Positions 1,182 through 34,515 of a stretch of DNA of 38,467 bases are shown piece by piece. The position numbers and the translations under genes are program-made. Source of the stretch: a virus; IMG/VR virus record IMGVR_UViG_3300033153_004517, positions 1 through 38,467 of that record, one strand, 5' to 3'. The notes below the pieces were generated by a model. It was given only the letters and a program-made list of their open reading frames with translations, was not told the origin of the DNA and did not search any database. Each line of letters opens with the position of its first letter. Within the stretch, counting starts at the first letter, position 1.

Positions 1182-1481
1182 TTATTTTCCTGTGCTACCT
1201 ATACCGCCACCTCTTATTTCTTCAATGTTATCGTCATCACACACTAAATAATTCTCAATAATACCTTGTGCTACTTTATCGCCTTTTTTCAATATTATGG
1301 CGTGTGAACCATAATTATATAATGCCATAGCGATATTACCATCATTGTCAGTATTTCCGTAATAATCACAATTATGAAGACATAAATTATTACCAAAGAA
1401 ATTATGATTATTTTCAACATTTAAATGATATATCGGTTCTGTTTCAGTTTTTTCTATTTTTTTAATTTTTACAAATTTCAT
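1182..1481 (-). CDS. dut: dUTPase C-terminal half with split-intein C-domain (IntC)
   Basis: 99 residues. Residues 1-37 form an intein C-terminal domain: block F-like IYHLNVENNHNFFG, then LCLHN ending in the penultimate His and terminal Asn needed for Asn cyclisation. Cys38 is the +1 nucleophile. From Cys38 the sequence is dUTPase: CDYYGN (second half of motif 3), KKGDKVAQ (motif 4) and RGGGIGSTGK (motif 5, the flexible C-terminal arm). It cannot be a complete dUTPase because motifs 1 and 2 are missing; these are in the gene at 2380-2931. The gene has its own AAGGAG Shine-Dalgarno and its ATG overlaps the TGA of the endonuclease gene (ATGA), so it is translated separately. Trans-splicing with the N-half is inferred from the motifs. 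Confidence 0.92.
   Translation of the reverse strand: MKFVKIKKIEKTETEPIYHLNVENNHNFFGNNLCLHNCDYYGNTDNDGNIAMALYNYGSHAIILKKGDKVAQGIIENYLVCDDDNIEEIRGGGIGSTGK
1371..1481 (-). other. Split intein C-domain (IntC), 37 residues
   Basis: Codons 1-37 of the dUTPase C-half gene. The last two codons are CAT AAT (His-Asn, 1376-1371), directly followed by TGT (Cys, 1370-1368) as the first extein residue. A length near 35-40 residues is usual for the C-part of naturally split inteins. Confidence 0.9.
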
Positions 1482-2317
1482 TTTAAAAACTCCTTCATTT
1501 GTTTTAACATCAATTCTTTTTTGTTATTCCAATCTTTTTCCCAAAGTATAAACACATTATAATTTTTATTTTCTAAGTATTTTATTCTAATATTATCTTT
1601 TGCCCATATTTCATCAGCCATTTCTTTTTTATGTTTGTGAAAGTATTCAGAGGAATACATATCAGGATTACAATGCCAATAATCTCCATAACATTCTATA
1701 ATCTTATTATTTCTTCTTATATCGGGAATGATTTTTCTATCATCGAAATTAAATATTTCTTCATCTATTATATCATTATAGAAATTCTTTAATTCTTTAA
1801 ATACATCCTGACTAAATTTAGACACACAATATCCAGATTTTCGGAAACACCCAACAGAACAAAATTTAGCAGTATGTTCTCGGTATTTATGAATGTCAAA
1901 TTCACAACCACAAGTTTTACAAATCTTTCTTATTTTTTCTTCTGGTAATTGATTAGATTGTATTATAACATCTTTGTTATTTCTTCTATATTCCCAAAAA
2001 CAATATCTAGAACAAAATTTTTGTGTATTGTTATACTTTGGCAATATGAACTCACATTCGCAATATTTACATCGTTTCACAATTTGTTTGTTATTAGGAT
2101 TGTGTTTTCTTTTAAACTCACCGCTACATTTTTTATTACAGAATATTTTAGAATTATTTTCCATCTTTGTTATTTCTTTTCCACAATTTCTACAATTTAT
2201 AACCACTATCTTCTTTTTCTTTGATTCCCAATAACAATTATGCGAACAAAATTTTTTATTTTTATTCCAATTAACAACACTAAAATTTACATCACACGCT
2301 TCACAACTTTTAATCAT
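1478..2317 (-). CDS. Free-standing homing endonuclease, four zinc fingers plus Vsr-like nuclease
   Basis: 279 residues. The N-terminal half has four tandem modules of the form CxxC...FCSxxC, each about 35 residues, beginning near residues 5, 42, 83 and 133 (CEACDVNF, CRNCGKEI, CKYCECEF, CKTCGCEF); these are likely zinc-binding DNA-contact modules. The C-terminal 110 residues look like a Vsr/EDxHD-type nuclease: KIIPDIRRNNKIIECYGDYW with conserved Asp, Glu and Asp, then WHCNP, and a helix-strand segment IWAKDNIRIKYLENKNYNVF. It sits between the two halves of a split-intein dUTPase, the location described for this nuclease family in 'fractured' phage genes. A late promoter precedes it. The ATG at 2317 has a GGTGGT Shine-Dalgarno. 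The target is predicted to be an intact dut gene. Confidence 0.85.
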   Translation of the reverse strand: MIKSCEACDVNFSVVNWNKNKKFCSHNCYWESKKKKIVVINCRNCGKEITKMENNSKIFCNKKCSGEFKRKHNPNNKQIVKRCKYCECEFILPKYNNTQKFCSRYCFWEYRRNNKDVIIQSNQLPEEKIRKICKTCGCEFDIHKYREHTAKFCSVGCFRKSGYCVSKFSQDVFKELKNFYNDIIDEEIFNFDDRKIIPDIRRNNKIIECYGDYWHCNPDMYSSEYFHKHKKEMADEIWAKDNIRIKYLENKNYNVFILWEKDWNNKKELMLKQMKEFLK

Positions 2318-2350
2318 ACCAAACCACCATTAAATTTATTTATATACTAT

Positions 2351-2358
2351 TATTTATA
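2351..2358 (-). promoter_or_regulatory. Late promoter (TATAAATA) for the endonuclease gene
   Basis: Minus-strand TATAAATAATAGTATA matches the T4 late -10 motif recognised by gp55-type sigma. It lies about 33 bases before the endonuclease ATG. The flanking 20 bases are identical to those around the late motif at 6925-6932. Confidence 0.7.
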
Positions 2359-2379
2359 AAAGTAATACATAAAGTTAAT

Positions 2380-2931
2380 TTAAATTTTTAAAATTTTATC
2401 ATTTATTGTTAATTTCTCAGCTTTCACCCAACCTCGTTCAGTATAAACTTCTTTCTTTAGTGGTATTTTGATATTATCCCCATCCACTGTTTCAATCTCT
2501 AATAACTCTAAATCAGTAACAATCCATACATCACCAACAACATCATTTTCAATCTCATTTGTTTCTTCATTATAAGATAAAACTAATTCACATTCTGTAC
2601 TATTAAAAATATCTTCTATTTTTTTATCACCATTAGGGGTTGATATTAAAGTTCCTTTAGGTACGCAATCAATAACACCAGTACCATTAGCTATCATAAG
2701 TTGATATTTAATACCCAAAGAACTTCTAATGTGTATTTTGAGCATTTCATCATCATTTAACCTTACTTTAACATCAGTCCAAGTAACAACAACTTTACCA
2801 GGATTTACTTGTACATCTTCTTGTAAAAAGAAATCATGACCTGCGGATTTAGAAGTTGACCTTCTTGGTAAGTTTGGTGCAGTATCCTTATTTTTTGCAA
2901 ATTCGGGGCGTACCATTTCAAACATTCTCAT
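2380..2931 (-). CDS. dut: dUTPase N-terminal half with split-intein N-domain (IntN)
   Basis: Starting at the ATG at 2931 the protein is 183 residues; an upstream TTG at 2943 is possible but less likely. Residues 1-88 are dUTPase: SAGHDFFLQE (motif 1), RSSLGIKYQLMIAN (motif 2) and GTGVID, the first half of motif 3 with its catalytic Asp. At Cys89 the sequence changes to an intein N-domain: CVPKGTLISTPNGDKKIED (block A) followed by a beta-rich segment of 95 residues ending at the stop. With the C-half this gives a 150-residue dUTPase, the normal family length. dUTPase hydrolyses dUTP to dUMP and PPi, keeping uracil out of phage DNA. The gene is downstream of the early promoter at 4060-4088. Confidence 0.92.
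   Translation of the reverse strand: MRMFEMVRPEFAKNKDTAPNLPRRSTSKSAGHDFFLQEDVQVNPGKVVVTWTDVKVRLNDDEMLKIHIRSSLGIKYQLMIANGTGVIDCVPKGTLISTPNGDKKIEDIFNSTECELVLSYNEETNEIENDVVGDVWIVTDLELLEIETVDGDNIKIPLKKEVYTERGWVKAEKLTINDKILKI
2383..2667 (-). other. Split intein N-domain (IntN), 95 residues
   Basis: Starts with TGC (Cys, 2667-2665) straight after the GAT for the catalytic Asp of dUTPase motif 3. The block A-like start CVPKGTLIST supplies the Cys1 nucleophile. It ends in its own stop codon, with no endonuclease domain and no C-domain in frame, as in naturally split inteins. Confidence 0.88.
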
Positions 2932-3055: not shown

Positions 3056-4005
3056 TAGTTAACCCTTTTAGTTAATATGTAATCTTTTAAAACGTTTTGT
3101 ACTTCTTTTTCTACTAAACTATTAATACACCCAACAAGTGTTGTTACTACATCATCACTTCCATTAATAACCCTTGTGTGTGATGATACACTTGTAGCTT
3201 TTCTATCGTGTTCTATCACTTCAACCACTTTTCTTTCTGTAGTTTTATTTTTAGAACCTTTAGGTCTTCCTAATTTAGCTTTAGGTTGTGGTGTAATAGG
3301 CGTTACAATATCAACATCATCGTCTTTTACATTTGATATATATTTATCATCTTCAAGTCCAACATCTACAATATCAGTTGTATATAAACTATCAATGTAT
3401 TTTTTAGCTACGGTATAATTAACATTAAATTTATCTTGAATGTGTGATGCATTTAAGTGTGGGTTATGATTGATAAATGCTTTGATTTCATCTGTTAATT
3501 CGGTTGGTGTAATCATCATTTTTTGATGTTCGCCTGTTATTTGATGTGTTTCTAATGGTGTTGGGACTAAACTAGCATCACCAAGCAAACCTATAAATCT
3601 ATCCTTCTCACCTCTATAATTATGTATTAACTTATAAAGTTTAGAATTTACCCCCATTTCGGTTTTGTAAACTACCCGACTTATCGCTAAATCGCTTAGG
3701 ATATTTTTATGTTCCCAAGCAAATGACATTTCATCTGCTGTCCAGTTATGTGGCTTATCCACTTTAACAGCACCACTATTACCATTACTATTACTACCAA
3801 CTCCTTTAGGTTTACTAACAGCCATAACAATACCATGTTTAATTTCTGTCATGAAATGAACCATTTGGTCGGTTAAATTCCCATTTTTCAATCTACTAAC
3901 AATACTTTTTACAGTACTTTCGTTAGTTCTTGTCATCGTTGATAATTCTTTTATACCCATAAACTTATAGCTGGTATAAATGGTTTTAAATAAATCTCTT
4001 GTCAT
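3055..4005 (-). CDS. Putative DNA-binding protein with helix-turn-helix and AT-hook
   Basis: 316 residues. The N-terminus has a helix-turn-helix-like segment (IKELSTMTRTNESTVKSIVS, about residues 18-37). A second winged-helix-like stretch lies near residues 170-205 (TDEIKAFINHNPHLNASHIQ). A classic AT-hook GRPKGSKNK follows near residue 243, suiting an AT-rich genome. It reads as a DNA-binding regulator or accessory protein; no named family is recognised. The gene is first after a fused terminator-promoter element and upstream of the small protein and the dUTPase N-half, so it is probably early. Its stop overlaps the next ATG. Confidence 0.65.
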   Translation of the reverse strand: MTRDLFKTIYTSYKFMGIKELSTMTRTNESTVKSIVSRLKNGNLTDQMVHFMTEIKHGIVMAVSKPKGVGSNSNGNSGAVKVDKPHNWTADEMSFAWEHKNILSDLAISRVVYKTEMGVNSKLYKLIHNYRGEKDRFIGLLGDASLVPTPLETHQITGEHQKMMITPTELTDEIKAFINHNPHLNASHIQDKFNVNYTVAKKYIDSLYTTDIVDVGLEDDKYISNVKDDDVDIVTPITPQPKAKLGRPKGSKNKTTERKVVEVIEHDRKATSVSSHTRVINGSDDVVTTLVGCINSLVEKEVQNVLKDYILTKRVN

Positions 4006-5295: not shown

Positions 5296-5556
5296 TTATT
5301 TTGTTTTGGTATATTTCACATCAGTGTATGATTTTTTAATTTCTTCTTTGTCTTTACAATCTTTCTTTACAAAGACAGGTTTGTTATCAAATTCAACCAA
5401 GAATTCATATTCTGATTCTAAATTATACGCCAACTTATTTGTAGCTTCGACTGATGCCCATATTCTACCAAGACGTTCTTTTCCAACCCCATCCACCATT
5501 ATGTAATATGCGTATCCATCATGTGGTGCATATATTTGTTTACTAAATACTGTCAT
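5296..5556 (-). CDS. Hypothetical protein, 86 residues
   Basis: Beta-rich small protein beginning MTVFSKQIYAPHDGYAYYIM, with YEFLVEFDNKPVFVKK in the middle and a basic tail. No family is recognised. Its ATG overlaps the TGA of the gene before it (ATGA), with a GAGG Shine-Dalgarno, so the two are translated as a pair. Confidence 0.68.
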   Translation of the reverse strand: MTVFSKQIYAPHDGYAYYIMVDGVGKERLGRIWASVEATNKLAYNLESEYEFLVEFDNKPVFVKKDCKDKEEIKKSYTDVKYTKTK

Positions 5557-5927
5557 TCTTTATCCTCTTTAATTTTTCCTATATATTCTAAATATAAACT
5601 ATGACCATCTTTTTGCGCCCCTCTTATCATATAACCAAAATAGTCCTTCATATCTGTGGGGTCTATACATTTGCATTCTTGTATTTCATAAAAATAGTGA
5701 CATTTCATTATATCAGCTTCTTTTATCATTTCTTCTGTAAGTTCTATTCTTTTATCTTTTGATAATTCAAAGAAACCTCCATCTTCCACAGGTCGTAATT
5801 TTATAGCCATATGTGACGTATTAAGCCATATAGGTTTACCATCATCCCCGTAAAATTGTGGTTTATCAACTTCTTTAAATTTATCACAATCTAAATCTTT
5901 TAATTTTATTATTGTATTTCTTGACAT
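5553..5927 (-). CDS. Hypothetical protein, 124 residues
   Basis: Begins MSRNTIIKLKDLDCDKF. It contains a His/Cys-rich stretch (MKCHYFYEIQECKCID) that might bind a metal, but the pattern matches no family I know. AAAGGA Shine-Dalgarno before the ATG. It is upstream of, and overlaps, the 86-residue gene. No early promoter of the TTGACA type is visible in the 130 bases before it, so it may be read from the late promoter at 6925 or from an unrecognised promoter. Confidence 0.7.
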   Translation of the reverse strand: MSRNTIIKLKDLDCDKFKEVDKPQFYGDDGKPIWLNTSHMAIKLRPVEDGGFFELSKDKRIELTEEMIKEADIMKCHYFYEIQECKCIDPTDMKDYFGYMIRGAQKDGHSLYLEYIGKIKEDKE

Positions 5928-6033
5928 TATTTATCCTTTTTCGTGTAAGTTTGTGTTTTAATTTTATAAATAAGGGTATAGATTTAGCATTTCATAATTT
6001 CTTAAAATGTTATTTCCTCCTAAAACAAGCAAA

Positions 6034-6055
6034 TAAGCCCTTCTTTAAGGGCTTA
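6034..6055 (-). terminator. Hairpin terminator after the GIY-YIG gene
   Basis: A 9-bp perfect stem TAAGCCCTT/AAGGGCTTA with an AAAG tetraloop, starting three bases after the stop, followed by a T-rich but interrupted tract (TTTGCTTGTTTT). Confidence 0.7.
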
Positions 6056-6057
6056 AA

Positions 6058-6711
6058 TTATTTTAAACCATTTCTTCTTTTATACCTATTCAAAGCATTT
6101 TTTGTACCTCTTTTAAGCTCACCATTTAACAATCGTCTATCATCTTTATCGACCCAAAATACATTTTTATCTTTATCTTTTACTAATTTTTTACCACTTG
6201 TTATACCTTTTAACGACCCATTTAAATATCTTTCATCGTGTGTATCCACATTAAAAGTGTTACCATTTTTATCAATAACAACAATTTTACCCTTTGTAAC
6301 CCCAACTAATTCACCATTTAATAGTTTGGGGTCTTTTTTATCTGTATGTTTGACTATACCGTTTTTGTCTATGGTTTTTATTTTACCACAACTTTTATGA
6401 TTTTTAGTTTTTATTGGTATTTCAATATTATAATCATAACAACCGCCTAATATAATATTATAATTATCTTTTCTTTTAACAAATTCTTCGTTAATTATTT
6501 CTATTTCCTTATTATTCATATCATTAAAATTATCAAAATTATGAAGAATTTCTTTTTTAAAATTTTCTACCCCATATTTATCAAAAGCTCTTTTGAGATA
6601 TATACCACTACCCATATAACCATCATCTAAATCATTAGTAGAATGTTGACCGATATAAAATTTTTCGTTAATCAAATTGGTTATTTTGTATATTGTATTA
6701 TGCTTCTTCAT
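6058..6711 (-). CDS. GIY-YIG homing endonuclease (Seg-like)
   Basis: 217 residues from the ATG at 6711; a GTG three codons earlier also fits. The GIY-YIG nuclease core is at the N-terminus: IYKITNLINEKFYIGQHST, then YMGSGIYLKRAFDKYG, and a Glu-rich helix around EIEIINEEF supplying the metal-binding Glu. The C-terminal half has three repeats of about 32 residues with the pattern K..DK.G....V...D.R.LNGEL.G.T.G, likely DNA-contact modules. GIY-YIG enzymes make site-specific breaks that spread their own gene. The start lies inside the end of the ribbon-helix-helix gene, and both follow a late promoter. A terminator follows immediately. Confidence 0.88.
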   Translation of the reverse strand: MKKHNTIYKITNLINEKFYIGQHSTNDLDDGYMGSGIYLKRAFDKYGVENFKKEILHNFDNFNDMNNKEIEIINEEFVKRKDNYNIILGGCYDYNIEIPIKTKNHKSCGKIKTIDKNGIVKHTDKKDPKLLNGELVGVTKGKIVVIDKNGNTFNVDTHDERYLNGSLKGITSGKKLVKDKDKNVFWVDKDDRRLLNGELKRGTKNALNRYKRRNGLK

Positions 6712-6880
6712 TATACACACCTGTTCCTAACATCTTACTACTTTTATCTATTTCACACATCCAATCTTTTCTTATAAGTTCTCTAATATATACGCTTTTA
6801 TTCATATATTTAGATTTAGATGCGATTTCTAAAAAATCATCAAGTTCTTTTGGTAATCTTACTACTAGTGTTTTTTCCAT
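6698..6880 (-). CDS. Ribbon-helix-helix (CopG/Arc-like) DNA-binding protein
   Basis: 60 residues with the family layout: a beta strand KTLVVRLPKELDDFLE, then helix, a turn around KSKYMNKSVYIRELIRKD, and a second helix. Such proteins dimerise and insert paired strands into the DNA major groove as repressors. Strong AAGGAG Shine-Dalgarno before the ATG. The last codons overlap the GIY-YIG start, so the two are probably one cassette; a role in regulating the endonuclease is an inference from this arrangement. Confidence 0.75.
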   Translation of the reverse strand: MEKTLVVRLPKELDDFLEIASKSKYMNKSVYIRELIRKDWMCEIDKSSKMLGTGVYNEEA

Positions 6881-6924
6881 TTTTTACTCCTTGTATTACA
6901 TTTATAATATATTTCTTATACACT

Positions 6925-6932
6925 TATTTATA
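6925..6932 (-). promoter_or_regulatory. Late promoter (TATAAATA) for the RHH/GIY-YIG cassette
   Basis: Minus-strand TATAAATAAGTGTATAAG, 45 bases before the RHH start. The 20 bases at 6943-6924 are identical to those at 2369-2350 in front of the split-intein endonuclease. Confidence 0.7.
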
Positions 6933-6960
6933 AAAGTAATACACCAACTTGAAAAATTAT

Positions 6961-7731
6961 TTATTGATATATAAAATCTTTATCAACTTCAACATCGTTA
7001 ATAAAATTTTCATTAGGATTCTTTTGCGTATAATCCACATTTGTGTCTGAATTACTATTATAATCATACATCTGCATACTATCACTTACAAAATTCTTAA
7101 CATAATTGAATTTGTTCTTTAATAAGTCTTTTTCTTTTTTAATTTCTTGAAGAAAGGCTCTCCAAACTGCAAATGTAAAATATGTGAAGGGTTTACTATT
7201 TTTCCTATTTCTATCAAAGGTTCTTAATCCTTTAATACAATGTTCCATCGCTAACATTTTCATATCTTCTAAAAATGGATAATTTCTGTATTGTGGTTTA
7301 ATTGAAAAATTGTCAATAATAAGATTTACTTTAATACCTATATTATTATACACCTTTCTATGTTTAGTTCGTTCTTTACCTGATAGTTTGACTTTCTTTA
7401 TTTTATCATTACAGTCTTTTATCCTATCTTCATATTCTTGTATTCTTTTGTTAATCAGTAATTCTCTGTGTTTTACTTCTTTCTTCATTTTCTTGATATT
7501 TTCTTTTTCTACTGATGTAAGTGTGATTTTTCTTAATTTGGTATGTTGTATGTAATCTTTTTTATTGTAGAAGTCTTCATTATCCTTTATCACATTCTCT
7601 ATTCCTAATTCTGCTTCTTTAACACCATCATCAAGAACATTATACCAGTAAACTTTTTCTTCAAAATCTTGCCATAAACAAAGTTCATCAAAAAATTCGG
7701 TGTTATCAATGTAATGATTTTTCTTATACAT
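6961..7731 (-). CDS. gp55: Late-transcription sigma factor, gp55-like
   Basis: 256 residues. Residues about 143-205 resemble sigma region 2: YPFLEDMKMLAMEHCIKGLR, a charged link, then KPFTYFTFAVWRAFLQEIKK, which corresponds to the -10-recognition part of T4 gp55. T4 gp55 (185 residues) replaces sigma70 on host RNA polymerase to read TATAAATA promoters, the motif found repeatedly in this window, so the assignment is consistent with context. The N-terminal 140 residues are long, charged and coiled-coil-like, without a T4 counterpart that I recognise. It has an early promoter at 7794-7822 and a possible late one at 7875. The Shine-Dalgarno is weak. Confidence 0.8.
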   Translation of the reverse strand: MYKKNHYIDNTEFFDELCLWQDFEEKVYWYNVLDDGVKEAELGIENVIKDNEDFYNKKDYIQHTKLRKITLTSVEKENIKKMKKEVKHRELLINKRIQEYEDRIKDCNDKIKKVKLSGKERTKHRKVYNNIGIKVNLIIDNFSIKPQYRNYPFLEDMKMLAMEHCIKGLRTFDRNRKNSKPFTYFTFAVWRAFLQEIKKEKDLLKNKFNYVKNFVSDSMQMYDYNSNSDTNVDYTQKNPNENFINDVEVDKDFIYQ

Positions 7732-33722: not shown

Positions 33723-34502
33723 TTATTTATTATATATTTTAAATTCAAATTCATACCCCATATCTAAACAGGCTCTTTCTTTTAATAAATTTTTATTTAA
33801 ATCTTTATTATATGTATATACACTTTTAACTTCTATGATAGTATTTGTAGATTTTATATAAAAATCTGGATAATATCTATGTTTCTTATCATCTTCTGCA
33901 TAATACCATATCTTATCTATATCTTTTCCTTGTGTCGATATATCTTCTTCTAACCCACCATTATTAAAATATTCATCCAAAAACATCCATTCATATCCTT
34001 GAATTTTAACTTCTTTACCTGATGGCAGAATATAAGATTTTGATTGATATCCAGATTTTAATATTTTATCACGAACTTCTTTAATATGATTAGGATTTTC
34101 CACCCCATATTTTTTTAAACATGTTATTATTTTCTTATTTTTAATATTTTCTAACTTAGATATATTATCAACTCCGTACAACTCCATAACCGTTGTTTTT
34201 AATTTTTCTTTAACATCATTAATTAACATAACATTTTCCACCCCATATTTTTTTAAACATGTTTGTTTTCTTAAAGCTGTCTTACATTTTTTTGAAGTAC
34301 ACGTATTATAATATCCTTTAACCATACTGTTAAATTTAGATTTATTACCACATATTACACATTTACCACAATCACCAATTAATAAATATTTATCATAATA
34401 TTTTTGTCGGTTTGTGTTTTCATGCTTTAAATGTATATGTCTGGATAAACCAAATAAGTTTTTACACACAGTATTACATATTTGACATTTAACTCTTTTC
34501 AT
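33723..34502 (-). CDS. Free-standing endonuclease with zinc fingers and PD-(D/E)xK-like domain
   Basis: 259 residues. Residues 5-25 form a C2H2-like finger (CQICNTVCKNLFGLSRHIHL), followed by a second Cys group (CGKCVICGN...CTSKKC). Then come three short repeats with the core KKYGVENVM / LYGVDNISK / KKYGVENPN, typical DNA-binding modules of phage homing endonucleases. The C-terminal 100 residues carry a nuclease core: LPSGKEVKIQGYEWMFLDEY, then HRYYPDFYIKSTNTIIEVKS with Asp and Glu-x-Lys. It is directly after gp46 and is insulated by a terminator and a late promoter that starts the message on its ATG. Confidence 0.82.
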   Translation of the reverse strand: MKRVKCQICNTVCKNLFGLSRHIHLKHENTNRQKYYDKYLLIGDCGKCVICGNKSKFNSMVKGYYNTCTSKKCKTALRKQTCLKKYGVENVMLINDVKEKLKTTVMELYGVDNISKLENIKNKKIITCLKKYGVENPNHIKEVRDKILKSGYQSKSYILPSGKEVKIQGYEWMFLDEYFNNGGLEEDISTQGKDIDKIWYYAEDDKKHRYYPDFYIKSTNTIIEVKSVYTYNKDLNKNLLKERACLDMGYEFEFKIYNK

Positions 34503-34507
34503 ACTAT

Positions 34508-34515
34508 TATTTATA
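34508..34515 (-). promoter_or_regulatory. Late promoter giving a leaderless mRNA (start at 34502)
   Basis: TATAAATA, ATAGT, ATG. The first T of the motif is the last T of the preceding terminator tract. No room for a Shine-Dalgarno. Confidence 0.75.

Follow-up and report, generated by a model that had tools for sequence, protein, structure and literature searches.

We describe here a dUTPase gene (dut) broken in two by a split intein in the IMG/VR virus record IMGVR_UViG_3300033153_004517, a linear record of 38,467 bp that was analysed over its whole length and is called the window below. The locus is very probably a mobile fractured gene, in which an element made of an N-terminal intein half (Int-N), a free-standing nuclease gene and a C-terminal intein half (Int-C) has entered phage dut, with trans-splicing of the enzyme halves, homing of the element and decay of its nuclease. 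A first-pass annotation of the same DNA had proposed this fractured-gene reading, which is now upheld by domain matches, by the fold modelled for the nuclease, by relatives broken at the same site, by relatives with the site intact and empty, and by a signature of homing.

Organization of the fractured dut locus

Three open reading frames follow one another on the minus strand, namely the dUTPase N-half with Int-N (P0001, 2931-2380, ATG at 2931, stop codon at 2382-2380), the nuclease (1478-2317), and Int-C with the dUTPase C-half (P0002, 1481-1182); translation and domain matches confirmed these three genes as first annotated. The N-extein (2668-2931, 88 residues) holds dUTPase motifs 1 and 2 and the first half of motif 3, and ends in GTGVID, its last codon being 2670-2668. 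Int-N (2383-2667, 95 residues) begins directly after it with Cys1, which is Cys89 of the N-half (2667-2665). The whole N-half protein matched PF00692 (27.3 bits) and TIGR00576 (52.6 bits) as well as the NCBIfam intein_Nterm model TIGR01445 (28.0 bits, cut-off 24.5), so that Pfam dUTPase and intein_Nterm both exceed their curated cut-offs, in agreement with the motifs and the Cys start noted earlier. The N-extein was further matched to phage dUTPases by tblastn, and Int-N to intein structures including NrdJ-1 (8ubs) by phmmer and by alignments.

On the other side, Int-C (1371-1481, 37 residues) ends in His36-Asn37, and the junction LHN|C gives the terminal His-Asn followed by Cys of a class 1 intein, to which Cys at intein position 1 also belongs. 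Its match to the C-terminal part of Pfam Intein_splicing (E 2e-6) lies under the Pfam cut-off; its identity is unambiguous from context, and it is strongly conserved (68% identity with the Int-C of a relative, L011). The C-extein (1182-1370) comprises Cys+1, motif 3b (DYYGN), motifs 4 and 5 and the stop codon. It passes the Pfam cut-off barely (PF00692, 22.2 bits), matches NF010561, and reaches 48% identity with phage dUTPases; the alignment bears out the Int-C end and motifs 3b-5 seen in the first pass. Pfam, NCBIfam and PHROGs place dUTPase on the N-half and on the C-half, and the five motifs of a trimeric dUTPase stand in order across the joined halves, with a predicted spliced product of 150 residues and no extra residue. 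The enzyme is thus carried by two reading frames broken at an intein junction, with a free-standing endonuclease frame between them. The nuclease stop and the C-half start share an ATGA (1478-1481), and the two genes therefore form one translationally overlapping unit; the 3' end of the nuclease gene overlaps the Int-C start in nearly all intact cases of the family.

The nuclease (279 residues) had been read as a Vsr-like protein with four zinc-finger modules, and both parts of this description hold. A motif scan found four CxxC..CxxC modules (residues 5-157) followed by a PDI...IIECYGDYWHC core in a domain spanning residues ~164-279, in line with the family alignment. Sequence searches gave weak matches, to MTES_1575 (E 0.015) and to Vsr chains (E about 1.2). 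In an AlphaFold2 model built from four relatives (pLDDT 72), residues 164-279 align best with Vsr 1cw0 (Z 11.1, 2.8 A over 109, top of the list), then with I-Bth0305I (3r3p, Z 10.2) and with 1vsr (Z 9.6). Foldseek independently agrees, placing 1vsr and 1cw0 at the head of its ranking (E 0.02-0.07) and 3r3p in fourth place, and the nuclease as modelled is therefore Vsr/EDxHD-like by fold. It shares the catalytic-domain fold and the PD...WHC motif with I-Bth0305I and Vsr but differs from them in using four CxxC..CxxC modules as its DNA-binding part, and it sits in a split intein, whereas I-Bth0305I sits in a group I intron.

A recurrent insertion with a decaying nuclease

The break directly after the motif-3 catalytic Asp (Asp|Cys), pointed out in the first pass, recurs at the identical site in 30 IMG/VR records besides the window, from many samples and diverged phages; a few of these hold only a C-half at a contig edge. 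These relatives, given L numbers below like the other loci compared, answer the database search for dut insertions at this site that the earlier annotation had suggested. The first protein scan of IMG/VR led to L011 and L012, and the rest of the family was reached through a profile of both C-halves. The DNA pattern HN-C-[D/G]YRGE returned 26 stretches, 23 within known records and three new, all three of which proved to be dUTPase inteins. The pattern HNxDYYGN yielded no dUTPase inteins in IMG/VR, its decoded matches being mostly one unrelated glycine/asparagine-rich protein, and an N-half profile recovered L011/L012 and one distant match, nothing else. A scan of genome contigs returned distantly related inteins in other genes of metagenome-assembled genomes and no others, and a scan with the spliced L038/L040 dUTPase returned known loci only, with no empty allele.

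Two intein clades occupy the site, each with its own type of nuclease. Clade 1 (the window, L033, L034/036/049, L035, L037-040 and L011/012) carries the zinc-finger Vsr-type nuclease, found between the halves at the same place in L033, L035 and L037/038/040. Clade 2 (L042-048, L058 and L144) carries a protein with a C2H2-like finger, repeats and an IPDF..ELKG core resembling PD-(D/E)XK, with sub-threshold matches only, to TnsA-like and related nuclease models, and no match in cultured phages; it is apparently a second, uncharacterised type of homing nuclease.

Four kinds of record show a nuclease that has been frameshifted or cut down to a C-terminal relic. It lies in two frames in L034 and is frameshifted into pieces in L139. 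In L011 the Int-N stop is followed at once by the last ~60 codons of the nuclease, which match the L040 nuclease by tblastn (E 1e-18). In L053-L057 a gap of 65 bp is left, whose frame reads SAEIWTIENSASYRLCWSIDEAKFVIKEIYEIFENSKN and is near-identical to the C-terminus of the L139 nuclease; the L053 relic scores 24.3 bits against the end of the L046 nuclease, the best of 1,000 shuffles reaching 21.2. The split intein and both dUTPase halves were kept in every one of these cases. Purifying selection is evident across divergent pairs (ratio of nonsynonymous to synonymous divergence, dN/dS, 0.05-0.39 where measurable), and no representative dut intein of either clade departs from Cys1, the terminal His-Asn or Cys+1. 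In L034, the fractured dut is directly followed by an IMPDH gene (5331-7493) that holds an intein too, contiguous and with a LAGLIDADG-like stretch, so that two neighbouring genes are intein-bearing there.

Signatures of mobility

The clearest trace of movement comes from L038 and L040, which were recovered from different samples. They differ by seven substitutions between positions 3825 and 5116 (1,292 bp), from Int-N through Int-C, against 11 substitutions in the 45 bp upstream and 10 in the 44 bp downstream, and this tract of low divergence is bounded at the splice junctions. Synonymous divergence (dS) is 0.018 in Int-N, 0.014 in the nuclease and 0 in Int-C, versus 0.69 and 0.60 in the dUTPase halves and 0.31 in the upstream gene. 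Judged by these substitution counts and dS values, the pattern is a signature of homing, and it points indirectly to site-specific cleavage of the empty allele. A like signature is seen in L042/L046, where the exchange continues downstream, and L053/L056 and L051/L056 present older versions of it.

Comparisons between other loci show horizontal transfer as well. The window shares 62% identity with L034 in Int-N and 29% in the enzymes, and 86% with L035 in Int-C and 24% in the enzymes. A single clade of the seven clade-1 loci receives 100/100 in the intein tree but is rejected on the dUTPase tree (approximately unbiased test, p-AU 7e-6); the intein tree alone does not reject moving L034 to the other clade (p 0.136). 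In the dUTPase tree, the window enzyme groups at 100/99 with three intein-free loci, L118, L119 and L052, and intact empty-site dUTPases are thus among its closest relatives. Their empty alleles read GIID|SDYY, GIID|ADYF and GIID|ADYY; with Ser or Ala at +1, they indicate that Cys+1 came with the intein. Enterococcus phage VRE9_3 (L127, 1312-2109) encodes an intact dUTPase of 265 residues whose intein site is empty (GVID|GDYY). This 'long' dUTPase had been considered as a candidate intein bearer and was rejected, its ~110 extra residues lying between motifs 1 and 2.

An intein active site without the block-B histidine

The first-pass annotation made no mention of the replacement of block-B Thr and His and of block-F Asp in the window intein. 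In ungapped alignments with NrdJ-1 (8ubs, by phmmer) and with the UvsW intein of Salmonella phage S16, Int-N has Pro69 in place of Thr at B:7 (2461-2463) and Lys72 in place of His at B:10 (2452-2454), and Int-C has His19 (1425-1427) in place of Asp at F:4. The canonical class 1 Thr/His pair is thus missing from block B, and position 4 of block F holds neither Asp nor Cys or Trp, being His in all seven clade-1 loci. Six clade-1 inteins, only about 50-60% identical to that of the window, all share Pro69 and Lys72. In clade 2, block B reads TPGT or TDNT, with Thr in place of His, and Asp at F:4 is retained. Every dut-site intein thus lacks the block-B His, which was kept in all 17 inteins of other host genes compared. 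The two dut clades group together with support of 61/77, and this His may have been lost once or twice.

The residue at -1 in dut is always the catalytic Asp, and Asp at this position promotes N-terminal cleavage. We put forward, with a confidence evenly divided between acceptance and rejection, that the dut site may have bred naturally split, mobile inteins that perform the first splicing step without the block-B His. Two different active sites would serve for this, one with Pro/Lys in block B and His in block F and the other with Thr at B:10, both adapted to an invariant -1 Asp that would otherwise favour premature N-terminal cleavage. His at B:10 is the most conserved intein residue according to a 2014 review, which listed two inteins without it, a degraded pseudogene and Tko CDC21-1, the latter using Lys (PMC4031507). 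In an engineered DnaB intein, bulky -1 residues can offset the loss of the block-B His (PMC6333167). The active Tko CDC21-1 resembles the window intein in lacking this His and in the Lys invoked to replace it (PMC4031507); it is, however, a contiguous archaeal intein whose compensating Lys58 lies outside the motifs, whereas the window has Lys at the His position itself and His at F:4.

Expression control

Two candidate T4-type late promoters, both reading TATAAATA on the minus strand, lie 33 nt (2351-2358) and 19 nt (2337-2344) upstream of the nuclease ATG. Among the products encoded in the window are a T4-like late sigma factor (6964-7731) and T4-type capsid, portal, protease and SbcCD-like proteins. 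In the 100 bp upstream of minus-strand genes, TATAAATA was counted eight times against 1.6 expected (P 0.0005; two in the reverse orientation); the eight include copies before the genes of the major head protein and the protease and the two before the nuclease. A late promoter for the nuclease is therefore plausible, on the strength of the sigma factor and of this enrichment. The earlier proposal that the nuclease has its own late promoter while dut belongs to an early unit is accordingly retained for the nuclease and revised for the enzyme: both copies lie upstream of the nuclease and of the overlapping C-half, so that both of these could be transcribed late, and the N-half is the one part restricted to the upstream unit.

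In several relatives the 56-60 bp gap between the Int-N stop and the nuclease ATG holds strong hairpins (z -2.8 to -4.2) that cover the ribosome-binding region of the nuclease, with both nuclease types (L033, 3917-3976; L037/L040, 4125-4180; L048, 4076-4132; L058, 4024-4081). The gap in L035 shows no such hairpin. Control of this kind has been described for I-TevI, segB and mobE, with a late promoter and a hairpin sequestering the ribosome-binding site for I-TevI (PMC2988022). Like I-TevI, the window nuclease has a candidate T4-type late promoter immediately before it, and L033, L037/L040, L048 and L058 share the hairpin, but the window differs in its weak hairpin, in its split-intein host and in a downstream enzyme half that shares the promoter.

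Two further homing-endonuclease-like genes lie in the window, at 6058-6720 and at 33723-34502. The latter stands just downstream of an SbcC-like gene, and TATAAATA occurs at 34508-34515, 5 bp upstream of its start.

Proposed mechanism and alternative explanations

From a mechanistic point of view, the element Int-N/nuclease gene/Int-C would have been inserted right after the catalytic motif-3 Asp of a phage dut. The N-half and C-half proteins would be translated separately and their intein halves would associate; Cys1 would take the N-extein as a thioester and pass it to Cys+1, and cyclisation of Asn37 would release the 150-residue dUTPase. The separate nuclease would act as a homing endonuclease cutting the intact dut of co-infecting phages, and repair would then copy in the entire unit, with Cys replacing the Ser, Ala or Gly found at +1 in empty alleles. 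Expression of the nuclease would probably be late, from the T4-type promoters, with the C-half co-transcribed. Once the gene is fractured, the nuclease could decay, loss of the split intein would be loss of dUTPase, and nuclease-free split dut genes would accumulate. In the window's clade, Lys at B:10 together with His at F:4 would probably form a compensating active site for the first intein step, tuned to the fixed -1 Asp.

Several points weigh against this mechanism. The block-B His is absent and its mutation blocks or cripples other inteins, so splicing in the window could be slow or bound to special conditions. No empty-site phage was close enough in DNA to the window to map its own insertion nucleotide by nucleotide. 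Finally, the hairpin between the window's own genes is not significant (z -0.5).

The first of these points also makes the initial splicing step doubtful, block-B Thr being missing as well, and this lends some weight to a reading in which the halves are not spliced and assemble non-covalently into an active dUTPase, the intein halves serving as a zipper, like the NrdA halves of phage Aeh1 around mobE. An enzyme made from genes in pieces and working without splicing is indeed known (Friedrich, 2007, as cited in PMC10448857). We nevertheless consider this improbable, given that a mere zipper would not require the invariance of Cys1, the terminal His-Asn and Cys+1 in both clades, and that the break lies inside catalytic motif 3. 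Still less likely is a dead element, in which splicing was lost along with the block-B His, leaving these phages without an active dUTPase; the degraded pseudogene among the two His-less inteins known in 2014 (PMC4031507) offers a precedent, but the purifying selection on intein halves and exteins, the replacement residues invariant across inteins ~50% identical, the recent lateral spread and the five intact dUTPase motifs all argue otherwise. An assembly or sequencing artefact, whether unrelated genes joined or one gene broken, was named in the first pass as an outcome that would overturn the reading and is suggested by the single, linear metagenomic contig, but the recurrence in 30 records from many samples and diverged phages refutes it, as it does chance. 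An intron explanation was dropped, since Rfam and tRNA scans of the window were empty.

Relation to known systems

Fractured genes with split inteins and free-standing Vsr-like endonucleases were reportedly described by Dassa and colleagues in 2009, with a list of eight host enzymes. The layout in the window is that of these 2009 genes, which are said to share with it an enzyme of nucleotide or DNA metabolism broken by a split intein, a free-standing Vsr-like nuclease lodged between its two parts with control elements close by, and a phage setting. The family described here differs in its dUTPase host, in the lack of the block-B His, in the two nuclease types at one site, and in the homing tract and nuclease relics. 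As a host, dut may already be among the 2009 enzymes: a literature search found no paper linking dUTPase with split inteins, the founding list lying outside that search. No counterpart to the variant active site, to two types of nuclease at a single site, to the series of nuclease decay or to the homing tract turned up in the descriptions found.

Cultured Salmonella phages hold a fractured gene too, the uvsW of Salmonella phage S16 (Gelderlandvirus; L126, NC_020416.1, 2317-5043), where gp114 ends in Int-N, gp115 begins with Int-C and gp114.1 stands between them; the annotation gives them only as two 'DNA helicase' genes with one hypothetical protein. As in the window, an enzyme gene (here a helicase) is split with a gene between its parts, and the intein halves are 39% (Int-N) and 41% (Int-C) identical to those of the window; S16 differs in its canonical block B (VTGNH), and gp114.1, a putative nuclease, is unrelated to the window nuclease.

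The dut family offers a graded record of the origin of split inteins at one codon of one enzyme, from intact fractured genes through frameshifted nucleases and C-terminal relics to nuclease-free split genes, with a clean homing tract at the same site. Its conserved inteins without the residue reported as most conserved among inteins are natural variants with which to test the roles of the block-B His, the block-F Asp and the -1 residue, and an intein working after Asp would be a useful tool for protein ligation.

Related Int-C halves were also recognised by eye in other phage genes (L059-L110), including ribonucleotide reductases, DNA polymerases, a clamp loader and terminase-like genes, and many of these look split from their N-half. 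In the window itself, the gene that follows immediately on the dUTPase C-half encodes an M28-like peptidase (80-1084), which is unusual in this place.
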